From: an uncultured Saprospiraceae bacterium
GTDB lineage: Bacteria; Bacteroidota; Bacteroidia; Chitinophagales; Saprospiraceae
Assembly (NCBI GenBank): GCA_937924145.1
Contig: CALDTJ010000633.1
Location: 1-37,715 of the forward strand
Direction of reading: 5' to 3'
DNA length: 37,715 nt
This document shows positions 8,284 through 33,697 of this stretch, piece by piece (position 1 is the first letter of the stretch; every line of letters starts with the position of its first letter). The position numbers were made by a program, and so were the translations under genes. The notes beneath the pieces are model-generated. The model saw only the letters and a list, made by a program, of their open reading frames with translations. It was not told the DNA's origin and made no database searches.

Positions 8284-8841
8284 TTAAAGATTCAACATTT
8301 TTCTTAAACGAGTCATGCACTTATATTTCTGTTGTTTAGCTGTTTTGGAACTATTATAACTCAATTGTTTTGCTATTTCTTCCATGGACAGCTTGTTGAA
8401 ATAAAATAAGTACAGCAAAGACTGGCAAGGGTCTCCTATTTTGTCAACCGCTAATTTAACCTCATTTATCTTATCCTCAATGATTTTACCTTCACTAATA
8501 CTAAACTCTTCGGAAAGTAGGCTTTCGTAATTAGATATATCCACATTGGCGATACGCTTTTTCTTATTTAGTCTTTTATACCAAAGATTTTTCGCTACAC
8601 CAAAAATATAAGTGCTAAGTGCGCTAGTTAATGTAAAATTGCCCCCTAAAGTTTTTTTGTAAAGCACAATAAGTGCATCTTGATATATATCTTTTGCATC
8701 TGCCTCTTTTCCACTATTATTTAATACATAATTTTTTACAGCTTGATAATTACCTTTCTTGTAAAGCAGCACCCATGCCTCTTCCTCTTTTTGCCTCAAT
8801 CGCTCTAGTAAAATATTATCTGATTGTATTTGATTACTCAT
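8284..8841 (-). CDS. ECF-type RNA polymerase sigma factor
   Basis: 185 residues, the normal length for an ECF sigma factor. Region 2 is seen in KEADAKDIYQDALIVLYKK followed by TLTSALSTYIFGVAKNLWYKRL (about 45-95). Region 4 is GDPCQSLLYLFYFNKLSMEEIAKQLSYNSSKTAKQQKYKCMTRLRKML (about 137-184), with the expected helix-turn-helix. There is no region 1.1 or 3. It heads a five-gene operon with a membrane anti-sigma factor directly after it. A putative housekeeping promoter lies 60-90 bases upstream. A copy of the GGTGACTT-N14-GATA box ends exactly on the ATG, see findings. No other in-frame Met occurs until near the C-terminus, so this start is favoured. Confidence 0.92.
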   Translation of the reverse strand: MSNQIQSDNILLERLRQKEEEAWVLLYKKGNYQAVKNYVLNNSGKEADAKDIYQDALIVLYKKTLGGNFTLTSALSTYIFGVAKNLWYKRLNKKKRIANVDISNYESLLSEEFSISEGKIIEDKINEVKLAVDKIGDPCQSLLYLFYFNKLSMEEIAKQLSYNSSKTAKQQKYKCMTRLRKMLNL

Positions 8842-8868
8842 ATATCCTCTATTTTGTAAAAAGTCACC
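8839..8868 (-). promoter_or_regulatory. ECF-type box overlapping the sigma start codon
   Basis: On the - strand, GGTGACTT (8868-8861) is followed by 14 bases and GATATATG (8846-8839), whose last three bases are the sigma ATG. Spacing and sequence match the boxes upstream of the genes at 9062 and 9692. If used as a promoter, transcription would begin just inside the sigma coding region. Confidence 0.6.
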
Positions 8869-8901
8869 TCTTCTTCTTTCAATTCATTTTATGCCCTCAG
8901 A

Positions 8902-8932
8902 CAAAGGTACGTACAAAGGCTCGCTTTTTAAA
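8902..8932 (-). promoter_or_regulatory. Putative housekeeping promoter of the sigma/protease operon
   Basis: On the - strand, TTTA (8932-8929), 19 bases, then TACCTTTG (8909-8902). The -7 element fits TAnnTTTG perfectly and the -33 element matches three of four bases. It would give a leader of roughly 55 bases before the sigma ATG. Confidence 0.5.
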
Positions 8933-8995
8933 TAAATAGCTAGCTAGTAGGTAATACATCAAAATTTTTATTTTTAAAAAAAGTGAAATGATAGA

Positions 8996-9026
8996 GGTGA
9001 CTTATTTAAAATAGAAAGATAAAGGG
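8996..9026 (+). promoter_or_regulatory. ECF-type promoter upstream of the 9062 gene
   Basis: GGTGACTT at 8996-9003, 14 bases, then GATAAAGGG at 9018-9026. A start near 9030 would leave a leader of about 30 bases. The same two blocks with the same spacing occur at 9622-9652 and at the sigma start codon, and no TAnnTTTG promoter is evident here. Assignment to the neighbouring sigma factor is inference. Confidence 0.65.
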
Positions 9027-9061
9027 TGTTCATTTAATTTTTAATTAAAAAAATATCCATC

Positions 9062-9442
9062 ATGAAAAAGTTATTATTTCTTACCATCACTTTATTAAGT
9101 CTTTTCACTTCTACCATTGATGCACAAACTGTTTACGTTACAAAGACAGGAACAAAATACCACGAAGACTACTGCTCCTATCTGGAATATAGTAAATATT
9201 TCATCAGTCTCTCGAAAGCATTAGAATATGGTTATACTAGCTGTTCTAGATGTAAACCTCCTAAAAAAACCAAAAGCGCAGTAAACGTCGTAAACACTCA
9301 GCCGACCTACCTCTACCAAAACACATCTCAACAACCAACATCTCGAACCACTTACTCAGTTAGATGTAATGGTATTACTCAAAAAGGTTATCAATGTAAG
9401 CGAAAAACGAAAAATGCCAATGGTTACTGCTGGCAACATTGA
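9062..9442 (+). CDS. Small exported protein with two Cys-rich (probable zinc) motifs
   Basis: 126 residues with a signal peptide (MKKLLFLTITLLSLFTSTIDA|Q). The first half has the pattern YVTKTGTKYHEDYCSYL...GYTSCSRCKPP (Cys38, Cys61, Cys64), like the small metal-binding domain found in secreted bacterial proteins and related to Ada-type zinc sites. After a Gln/Thr-rich linker, the C-terminus RCNGITQKGYQCKRKTKN...GYCWQH (Cys102, Cys112, Cys123, His126) matches the DUF5763-type motif. Both are predicted metal or redox sites in the periplasm or outside; the function is unknown. An ECF-type box lies about 36-66 bases upstream, which links the gene to the divergent sigma operon. Confidence 0.8.
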   Translation: MKKLLFLTITLLSLFTSTIDAQTVYVTKTGTKYHEDYCSYLEYSKYFISLSKALEYGYTSCSRCKPPKKTKSAVNVVNTQPTYLYQNTSQQPTSRTTYSVRCNGITQKGYQCKRKTKNANGYCWQH

Positions 9443-30141: not shown

Positions 30142-30723
30142 CTACTCAGTAATTTCATCAATGAGGTAATAAATATCTTTTAAAGCTATTTCTACATCTA
30201 GTGAATATAATTTTATAGAAGAATCTAGTCCTCTAGCATTTGAAATTCGCCAAATGTTATCCGCCTCTTTATACCAAGATTCTACCTTCGCCTCATATTG
30301 GTCAATCAAGACATATTCTTTGAACGAAGGTAAAGAACGATATTCTGTAAATTTACTTCCTTTATCATAATCTTTAGTTGATTTAGATAAAACTTCGACT
30401 ATCAATAATGGATTCGTAATTACATCTTTTCTTTTTTTATAAAAATCTGCTTTGTCACATATAACTGCAATGTCAGGATAGACACCTTTATTATATTCTT
30501 CAATTCTAATCTTTATTTCGCTATTATTGACTCTACATTTTTTATCTTTTTTTCTTAACTCATTTGATATAGCATTACCCGCATTTTGAGAAATGGTACT
30601 ATGATCTAAGGTACCACCAGCCATGGCATAAATTTTACCATTTTCATATTCACTTTTAAAGTCTGCCTTGTCTTCCAAGGCTAGATACTCTTCAAAAGTG
30701 TAATATTTTTCCTTCTTGTTCAT
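30142..30723 (-). CDS. Uma2-family (DUF820) PD-(D/E)xK-type putative endonuclease
   Basis: 193 residues from the ATG at 30723 (MNKKEKYYTFEEYLALEDKAD). The ORF track start at 30825 would run into a palindromic repeat element, so the shorter start is chosen. Family features: FKSEYENGKIYAMAGGTLDHSTISQNAGNAI, VYPDIAVICDK carrying the catalytic Asp, NPLLIVEVLSKSTKDYDKGSKFTEYRSLPSFKEYVLID with the Glu and Lys. The family is widespread, often many copies per genome, and its role is uncertain; links to restriction or toxin activity are speculative. The neighbouring CACAAAG palindrome suggests it arrived or moves as a mobile cassette. Confidence 0.85.
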   Translation of the reverse strand: MNKKEKYYTFEEYLALEDKADFKSEYENGKIYAMAGGTLDHSTISQNAGNAISNELRKKDKKCRVNNSEIKIRIEEYNKGVYPDIAVICDKADFYKKRKDVITNPLLIVEVLSKSTKDYDKGSKFTEYRSLPSFKEYVLIDQYEAKVESWYKEADNIWRISNARGLDSSIKLYSLDVEIALKDIYYLIDEITE

Positions 30724-30798
30724 TCCAAGATACTTTTGTTTTTCAAAAGATTCGAGTGTGTCAATTGGGGTAAAACATATTATACTCATTACCCTTAT

Positions 30799-30896
30799 TT
30801 TAAACCACAAAGAGACAAAGCACACAAAGGAAATTCACAAAGTGAATTTTATCTTTGTGGAAAGCTTTTGTGGCCTTTGTTTCTTTGTGGTTTAAA
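30799..30896. repeat. 98-bp CACAAAG-type palindrome upstream of the Uma2 gene
   Basis: TTTAAACCACAAAGAGACAAAG (30799-30820) pairs with CTTTGTTTCTTTGTGGTTTAAA (30875-30896) over 22 positions with one wobble. An inner hairpin AAATTCAC-AAA-GTGAATTT follows, with further CACAAAG/CTTTGTG pairing. Related CTTTGTG/CACAAAG elements are widespread in bacterial genomes beside small accessory genes, to my recollection. Confidence 0.75.
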
Positions 30897-32501: not shown

Positions 32502-32858
32502 ATGTTGACACCACAAATTAATTTATTGGTCATTCGGACAAACCAACTTAAAGCACTAGCTGAATTTTATGAATTGTTAGATATGAAATTTGATTATCAT
32601 CGACATGGTAATGGTCCCTATCATTATGCTGCTGAAATGAATGGTTTTACTTTTGAAATTTATCCTTTATTAAAAAGTCAGATGGAGGTTGATAAATCAA
32701 TACGGCTAGGATTTATAGTTGATAATCTAGAAAAAGTAATAGCGAAGTTAGAAAAGCATAATATTAAAATAATAAAAGCTCCATCCAAAACTGAGTGGGG
32801 CTTTCAAGCTATTATTAAAGATATAGATGGTCGGAAAATTGAATTAACTCAGCGTTAG
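32502..32858 (+). CDS. VOC-family (glyoxalase/bleomycin-resistance fold) protein
   Basis: 118 residues, a single VOC unit: INLLVIRTNQLKALAEFYELLDMKFDYHRHGNGPYHYAAEMNGFTFEIYPL, then IRLGFIVDNLEKVIAKLEKHNIKIIKAPSKTEWGFQAIIKDIDGRKIELTQR. The beta-alpha-beta-beta-beta pattern and the final Glu in the KIELTQ strand (a usual metal ligand) are present. Family members bind a metal and act on small electrophiles or bind drugs; the substrate is unknown. The 3' end, together with the hairpin element after it, is repeated 692 bases downstream. Confidence 0.88.
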   Translation: MLTPQINLLVIRTNQLKALAEFYELLDMKFDYHRHGNGPYHYAAEMNGFTFEIYPLLKSQMEVDKSIRLGFIVDNLEKVIAKLEKHNIKIIKAPSKTEWGFQAIIKDIDGRKIELTQR

Positions 32859-33007
32859 TGTAGAGTCGAAAATATAATGGGTTACCGATATTCCTAGTCT
32901 CCAGACTAGGAATCCATATTAAAGTCGTCTCCTGACGACATACAACGTACGCTGGTCTGGAGACCAGCAGATATTGATTTCAAGTCTGGAGACTTGAAAT
33001 ATCGGGG
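32679..33007 (+). repeat. Direct repeat copy 1 (329 bp): VOC gene 3' end plus hairpin element
   Basis: It matches 33371-33699 with about eight substitutions, at a constant offset of 692 bases. The substitutions lie mostly in the coding part and at the edge of the non-coding part; the 121-bp hairpin element has none. Confidence 0.92.
32885..33005. repeat. 121-bp multi-hairpin element, copy 1
   Basis: Outer arms CCGATATT (32885-32892) and AATATCGG (32998-33005) enclose four hairpins: ATTCCTAGTCT-CC-AGACTAGGAAT (32890-32913), GTCGTC-TCCT-GACGAC (32924-32939), GCTGGTCT-GG-AGACCAGC (32951-32968) and TTTCAAGTCT-GG-AGACTTGAAA (32978-32999). All four share a GTC/GAC core, three of them as GTCT-CC/GG-AGAC. 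Confidence 0.9.
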
Positions 33008-33036
33008 ATCAATAAGAAATTTCAACATAAAGCAAA

Positions 33037-33273
33037 TTAACTAGCTAAAGGTAAGACAGTTTGCGCATTTGCAATCCTAGCAGCATACCAAAGACATGCC
33101 CAAATATCCTCTTTTTCAATATATGGATAATCTTCTAAAATTTCCTTTATATTCATTCCACCAGCCATTAATTCCAACATTTGAGCAACGGTGAAACGCA
33201 TATTCCGAATGGTGGGTTTGCCTTTACAAACCTTTGAATTAAGAGTTATTCGAGACAATAATTTTTCATTCAT
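33037..33273 (-). CDS. DUF433-family protein (VapB-like antitoxin type), orphan
   Basis: 78 residues from the ATG at 33273; the ORF track's earlier start is a TTG. The sequence LLSRITLNSKVCKGKPTIRNMRFTVAQMLELMAGGMNIKEILEDYPYIEKEDIWACLWYAAR is a clear DUF433 domain with its winged-helix-like core (GKPTIR..R.TV..ML...A.G.....IL.DYP.L...DI.A.L.YAA). The family is commonly the antitoxin partner of a PIN-like DUF5615 toxin encoded right after it. Here the next thing downstream is the hairpin element and the convergent VOC gene, so no toxin is present. The gene lies between two direct repeat copies. Confidence 0.88.
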   Translation of the reverse strand: MNEKLLSRITLNSKVCKGKPTIRNMRFTVAQMLELMAGGMNIKEILEDYPYIEKEDIWACLWYAARIANAQTVLPLAS

Positions 33274-33370
33274 AAATGGCAATTTTTTCTATTCAACAAT
33301 AAGAAATCTTTTCCAGTTTCATAAAAATAATTAAAAATAACCAAAGAGTTTGTACTAAGCTAAAAAAGCT

Positions 33371-33550
33371 CAGATGGAGGTCGATAAATCAATACGGCTA
33401 GGATTTATAGTTGATAATCTAGAAAAAGTAATAGCTAAGTTAGAAAAGCAAAATATTAAAATAGTAAAAGCTCCATCCAAAACTGAATGGGGCTTTCAAG
33501 CCATTATTAAAGATATAGATGGTCGGAAAATCGAATTAACTCAGCGTTAG
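33371..33550 (+). pseudogene. Truncated copy of the VOC gene (C-terminal half only)
   Basis: The last 59 codons of a VOC gene, QMEVDKSIRLGFIVDNLE...GRKIELTQR, ending at the TAG 33548-33550. The N-terminal half is missing. Compared with the intact gene, most of about seven coding differences are silent; the exceptions are His to Gln and Ile to Val. That pattern suggests it diverged while still under selection and was truncated later. A Met codon at 33374 could start a 58-residue peptide, but half a VOC fold is unlikely to function. Confidence 0.75.
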
Positions 33551-33576
33551 TGTAGAGTCGAAAATATAATAGGTTA

Positions 33577-33697
33577 CCGATATTCCTAGTCTCCAGACTA
33601 GGAATCCATATTAAAGTCGTCTCCTGACGACATACAACGTACGCTGGTCTGGAGACCAGCAGATATTGATTTCAAGTCTGGAGACTTGAAATATCGG
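33577..33697. repeat. 121-bp multi-hairpin element, copy 2
   Basis: Identical in all 121 positions to the element at 32885-33005, with outer arms CCGATATT (33577-33584) and AATATCGG (33690-33697). Confidence 0.9.

Follow-up and report, generated by a model that had tools for sequence, protein, structure and literature searches.

A probable REPIN of two-hairpin half-units in an uncultured Saprospiraceae bacterium and its likely partner, a RAYT with group 5 motifs

The window, by which we mean the whole stretch of 37,715 nucleotides that was analyzed, carries two copies of a 121-bp element at positions 32885-33005 and 33577-33697, with 692 positions between their starts. The copies are identical in sequence, and each contains four hairpins with a GTC...GAC pair near the tip, just as a preliminary description of this DNA had reported. 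Upstream of copy 1 lies a plus-strand gene for a VOC/glyoxalase-like protein of 118 aa (32502-32858; PF00903, 31.7 bits against a cut-off of 20.6). The region between the copies holds a minus-strand DUF433 gene of 81 aa (33037-33282; PF04255, 74.7 bits) and, before copy 2, a duplicate of the 3' part of the VOC gene on the plus strand (33365-33550), which was recognized by repeat comparison. The end of the DUF433 gene is 32 bp from the element, and its homologue in genome G002 (L200, 75% identical DNA) continues into other sequence at that point; thus, the junction with the element may mark the loss of a neighboring gene. Elsewhere in the window, positions 30799-30896 hold a 44-nt inverted repeat (82% complementary) that contains CACAAAG motifs and lies where a minus-strand ORF (30142-30825) begins. 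This repeat is unrelated to the 121-bp element.

The element is adjoined on its left by a repeat (32673-32884 versus 33365-33576) that reaches into the 3' part of the VOC gene, of which the copy 2 side has only the 3' fragment. We counted 10 differences over the 212 bases of this repeat, in agreement with the roughly 4% divergence described previously for the neighboring coding repeat. Two of these differences lie at the ragged left edge, seven fall in aligned VOC codons (five of the seven are synonymous), and one lies in the non-coding gap just before the element. Given that both copies share an identical junction with the VOC gene, the pair goes back to one insertion that was duplicated later; two independent insertions in the window were considered and rejected, since the flank up to the VOC gene is common to both copies. 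The arrangement would be the product of an ordinary duplication, in which the copied segment included one element from the outset. If the 10 differences were distributed at random over 333 bp, the probability of finding none in the 121 bp of the element would be approximately 0.010, so the lower divergence of the element than of its flank is suggestive, but not strong. Rather than reflecting a recent duplication and chance, the identity of the pair might have arisen through gene conversion among the REPINs of this genome. The contrast between 0/121 and 10/212 differences argues for conversion, whereas the statistics are marginal, the genome contains no further identical copy, and the shared flank requires a duplication in any case; we therefore treat gene conversion as a possibility that we do not favor.

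Within copy 1, two half-units in inverted orientation are separated by an 11-bp spacer (32940-32950), and covariance model R1 matches them at 32886-32939 on the plus strand and at 32952-33004 on the minus strand. The first half-unit begins with CGAT (32886-32889), which is mirrored by ATCG at 33001-33004 and is followed by hairpin 1 (ATTCCTAGTCT-CC-AGACTAGGAAT, 32890-32913, plus strand) and hairpin 2 (GTCGTC-TCCT-GACGAC, 32924-32939, plus strand), both of which are marked by covariation across copies. The inverted half-unit contributes the inner hairpin 3 (GCTGGTCTGGAGACCAGC, 32951-32968) and the outer hairpin 4 (ATTTCAAGTCTGGAGACTTGAAAT, 32977-33000), both on the minus strand and both recognized by their match to the covariance model. 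In copy 2, the corresponding hairpins lie at 33582-33605, 33616-33631, 33643-33660, and 33669-33692. The 121-bp element folds with z-scores of -11.5 as RNA and -9.3 as DNA, and none of 200 shuffled sequences folds equally well. In the computed minimum fold, the outer hairpins 1 and 4 pair together as one long stem because each is nearly self-complementary and the two resemble one another, and the form with four separate hairpins is an alternative. The outer 35-bp arms of the element are 86% complementary.

An alignment of 43 distinct half-units defines the anatomy of the roughly 55-bp half-unit as CGAT, hairpin 1 (11-bp stem, loop of 2 bases), a linker that reads TAT, and hairpin 2 (stem of 6-7 bp, loop of 4 bases). 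Across these half-units, 98.4% of stem cells are paired and 97 double changes are observed, compared to a mean of 27 after shuffling; sliding the structure by a single column abolishes the pairing signal. Covariation is present in both the inner and the outer hairpins. Unlike the stems, the tips, which read TCTCC-N-GA, show hardly any variation. The tetranucleotide at the foot is CGAT in all 43 half-units and not the GT[AG]G of canonical REPs. Likewise, CGTC lies within the stem of hairpin 2 and is variable, rather than forming the unpaired end tag of CGTC REPs.

The preliminary description had likened the element to REP/REPIN-type sequences, and its distribution bears this out. A BLAST search of the bacterium's own genome (G000; 7.01 Mb in a fragmented assembly of 654 contigs) returned 88 matches, covering about 40 further genomic places, and model R1 detects at least 123 half-units among a maximum of 150 scored candidates. 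In the same-genus genomes, the model finds 82 half-units in G001, 114 in G006, 40 in G005, and 15 each in G004 and G007; it has no match in G002, G010, or G017. The best BLAST match outside the window is 96% identical, and no copy in the own genome besides the window pair is identical to the element, so we see no sign of current activity. The earlier suggestion of recent spread or homogenization is weakly supported at best, and the data do not support recent spread in this genome: the difference in identity has a probability of approximately 0.010, the window pair represents one duplicated insertion, and the nearest other copy differs by several percent.

Of 28 copies, which differ in length and completeness, 25 are not located in any ORF of 100 aa or longer. 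Their gene neighbors are convergent at 9 copies, co-oriented at 10, divergent at 3, and unknown at 6, and 19 of the 22 copies with known neighbors adjoin at least one gene 3' end. Such positions, together with the strong computed RNA fold, are what would favor a structured RNA or a set of bidirectional terminators under selection at the transcript level, as opposed to mobile DNA. A search of Rfam with the element found no family above threshold (the best score was 26.6 bits against a threshold of 70, and the sub-threshold eukaryotic matches were taken as chance), and neither dispersed inverted dimers nor the transposase-directed tips and transposase-matched stems described below would be expected of such an RNA. 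We consider this explanation very improbable, although a REPIN could well have a secondary role as RNA, as REPs are known to have.

Half-units occur singly and in both dimer orders. In the own genome, 13 of the 14 pairs listed, with spacers of 4-33 bp and among 62 half-units listed, have their inner hairpins facing one another, and in G001 the outer hairpins face one another in all eight pairs listed; the two orders look as if they had been cut from alternating arrays. The element shares with REPINs the inverted pair with a short spacer, the high copy number, and the extragenic location. Many of these REPINs sit inside larger TIR elements (CCGACACAGATGGG..., CCATAGCCGTCAGGCTAA..., TAGTACTTTGTCA...), as if carried along, with examples at L014, L024-L030, L045, L062, L072, and L073 in the own genome and at L254-L262 and L266-L273 in G001. 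For the larger CCGACACAGATGGG element without a REPIN inside, a search of six genomes gave 0 matches. Likewise, a search by synteny identified a VOC ortholog without the element in G004, but the DNA downstream of it is unrelated, and no pair of occupied and empty sites was found in the VOC synteny or the carrier element.

These larger elements, found in the own genome and in a sister genome, and the 86% complementarity of the outer 35-bp arms raise the question of whether the 121-bp unit is itself an ordinary MITE of a DDE transposase, in which case the arms would be its terminal inverted repeats and all four hairpins would be incidental. Solo half-units and both dimer orders are unexpected for a MITE of this kind, as is covariation in inner and outer hairpins alike, and the half-units are linked to a RAYT gene instead. 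We judge it highly unlikely that the element is such a MITE, and turn to the transposase with the REPIN reading as our preferred one.

Six places in the own genome match the Pfam family Y1_Tnp (PF01797), and the hairpins of the element are found at one of them only, on contig C171. The other five were rejected as partners because no half-units lie nearby. The gene on C171 (approximately 8751-9335, minus strand, corresponding to L053 1752-2336) is surrounded by half-units at L053 1602-1654, 1682-1734, 2428-2466 (incomplete), 2555-2607, and 2636-2687. The two half-units closest to the gene turn their inner hairpin towards it, so that the gene takes the place of the 11-bp spacer in the window element. 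A RAYT gene flanked by matching hairpins is what the preliminary description had proposed to look for in this genome. The encoded protein matches NF047646 (REP-associated tyrosine transposase) with 85 bits against a cut-off of 80, scores 19.7 against PF01797 (below the cut-off of 23), and is the only protein of its kind at this level in the own genome. It contains the motifs NHLH (58-61), WQ, and YIHQNA, the last ending in A and not P, and its catalytic residue Tyr144 is intact; H59, H61, and Y144 are invariant across 15 sequences. A structure model of the protein (pLDDT 89.7) has as its best fold match in the PDB 4er8, TnpA-REP with a REP hairpin (E 6.8e-9, TM 0.63/0.73), compared to an E-value of 0.02 for the same pair by sequence alone.

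To place this gene among its relatives, we assembled 80 loci with related RAYTs from named genomes, nearly all of which belong to Bacteroidota. The nearest relatives come from uncultured Saprospiraceae, followed by Phaeodactylibacter and Lewinella, and a relative with 78% identity (L077) has the same hairpins on its flanks. At many of the 80 loci, a flanking two-hairpin unit is directed at the gene, as in Ilyomonas limi (TGGCGTAGTCTCCCGACTACGTCA and GCAAATCTCCAGATTTGC). The stems are wholly unlike one another between genera, and TCTC(C)NGA is found again and again as the tip. In the 62 kb that lie no more than 400 bp from the 80 RAYTs, 51 hairpins with this tip point inward and 7 point outward, compared to 3 inward and 5 outward in the 271 kb lying further out. 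These tips occur at 22 of the 80 loci, the remaining loci having other hairpins or none that were recognized. When the tip type is mapped onto a tree of 62 RAYT proteins, 8 changes are required, compared to a mean of 15.7 for shuffled assignments, and none of 500 shuffles is as low.

The stems, likewise, go with the transposase. Each of three exact stem patterns, searched for in 14-17 genomes, was found only where a RAYT is flanked by that stem: the own pattern occurs 58 times in the own genome, 7 times in G004, and 0 times in 15 other genomes, and the Ilyomonas pattern has two copies only, both beside the RAYT gene. Contig C169 of G001 starts with the C-terminus of a RAYT (GVTDFYVFTG and one residue, then a stop), followed by a half-unit dimer ordered as in C171; we therefore withdrew an initial assignment of G001 as lacking a RAYT of this clade. 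No RAYT of this clade was detected in G005, G006, and G007, which have 15-114 half-units each, possibly due to their fragmented assemblies. Single hairpins flank other RAYTs of the same genus (L234, L237, L240, L244, and L245, in G006, G001, G008, and G003), and their tips are of the TGT or TGCA type, not TCTCC.

We thus hold with considerable confidence that the element is a REPIN and a non-autonomous substrate of a single-copy RAYT of group 5 (Bertels), or TnpA-REP subclass 2.6 (Quentin), encoded elsewhere in the same genome. The 121-bp element is very probably a small mobile piece of DNA that is handled by the C171 RAYT, with linkage and specificity pointing to mobilization by this protein. 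The placement in group 5 or subclass 2.6 is made by sequence motifs and fits well. According to Quentin et al. 2018 (PMC6006769), genes of subclass 2.6, mostly from Bacteroidetes, are flanked by atypical structures without GT[AG]G, copies of which lie elsewhere in the genome; the C171 gene shares this arrangement as well as the phylum, the NH[LIV]H, WQ, and YIH[QN]N motifs, and the protein length. The same text gives the motif as YIH[QN]NP (YIHQNP), in contrast to YIHQNA here, and describes the structures as weak but gives no anatomy, whereas those reported here are strong, with two hairpins per half-unit, a tip that does not vary, and CGAT at the foot. Relative to the texts consulted, what is new is a half-unit made of two hairpins, its constant tip, stems that covary, and the correspondence of stem and RAYT across genomes, with overlap with Table S1 of PMC6006769 being possible.

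The REPINs of Pseudomonas (Bertels and Rainey 2011, PMC3116915) are likewise dispersed, non-coding inverted REP doublets tied to a RAYT, but each REP there consists of one hairpin with a GTAG foot, compared to two hairpins per half-unit and no GTAG here. In the REP/TnpA-REP systems of E. coli and Stenotrophomonas (PMC8266576), an HUH single-strand endonuclease acts on a hairpin with a 5' tetranucleotide, an organization that resembles the present one except that the foot is GTAG and not CGAT. The E. coli system requires the GTAG foot and does not read the loop, whereas group 3 systems depend on particular positions of the loop (PMC8266576). Given an invariant loop and a foot that is not GTAG, the present element fits the group 3 style rather than that of E. 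coli. CGTC-tagged REPs (PMC3733652) are also small palindromes, some of them in Bacteroidetes, and CGTC is present in hairpin 2; however, their tag is an unpaired end with no transposase linked to it, whereas here it is part of a varying stem and a RAYT is linked. Since the defining tags are absent from the element, membership in the GTAG and CGTC superfamilies (PMC3733652) was excluded. A literature search for nested palindromes in hairpins or for REPs of Saprospiraceae found no papers.

With regard to mechanism, the half-units would fold as single strands and the RAYT would bind them through the TCTCC-N-GA tips. The CGAT foot, at the position that GTAG has in canonical REPs, would act as a guide that fixes the cleavage site, Tyr144 would cleave near the foot, and the doublet would be moved as one unit. 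The hairpins of group 5 RAYTs were previously called "atypical" and were found by eye, and a defined anatomy makes the substrates of these proteins searchable. It also supplies the exact oligonucleotides for cleavage experiments, such that target choice by a RAYT without GTAG becomes directly testable, and it provides a case, spanning several genomes, of a transposase and its substrate changing together.

Interruptions are common in the stems of hairpin 1. In 17 distinct hairpin 1 contexts, a palindrome of 24 bp, CCTGCCCGCAAGCATTCAGGCGGG, occupies one and the same position, within the 3' arm and three bases away from the loop, and it is also found in the arms of other hairpins (own-genome loci L046, L275, L009, L288, L291-L293, L286, L287, and others). 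When CCTGCCCGCAAGCATTCAGGCGGG is excised in silico, the stem becomes perfect again (9-11 bp) at 10 of 22 sites, two of which are hairpins unrelated to the REPIN, and at several of the remaining sites the opposite arm of the stem has already been lost. The palindrome looks like a hairpin-targeting mini-element that inserts cleanly, with neither loss nor duplication of its target. A broader reading, which we offer tentatively and would not yet bet on, combines two proposals: that RAYTs of group 5 recognize a code in the tips, TCTCC-N-GA on two tandem hairpins, while the stems drift freely, such that REP families would diversify by stem and share one key across much of the phylum, and that the stems would serve as landing sites for the 24-bp palindrome. 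If this is true, the palindrome would represent a novel type of miniature mobile DNA that targets hairpins.

Other palindromes were observed in the same hairpins. An 18-bp palindrome, TGCCGATAGCTATCGGCA, is present at 21 places in the own genome, and almost all contexts examined have it in place of five bases of hairpin 1, AGTCT or AGACT; at L062, L071, and L072, it stands in for the entire sequence that separates the outer feet of a REPIN. A related palindrome of 27-28 bp, CCAGCCCGAATGCCTTCTGGCGGGCGGG, is located at the foot of hairpin 1 at L022, L045, L070, and L073. Finally, locus L210 of G007 carries a longer palindromic MITE with TAGCCGTCAGGCTAA ends within hairpin 1, accompanied by an apparent 8-bp target duplication, CTCCAGAC.
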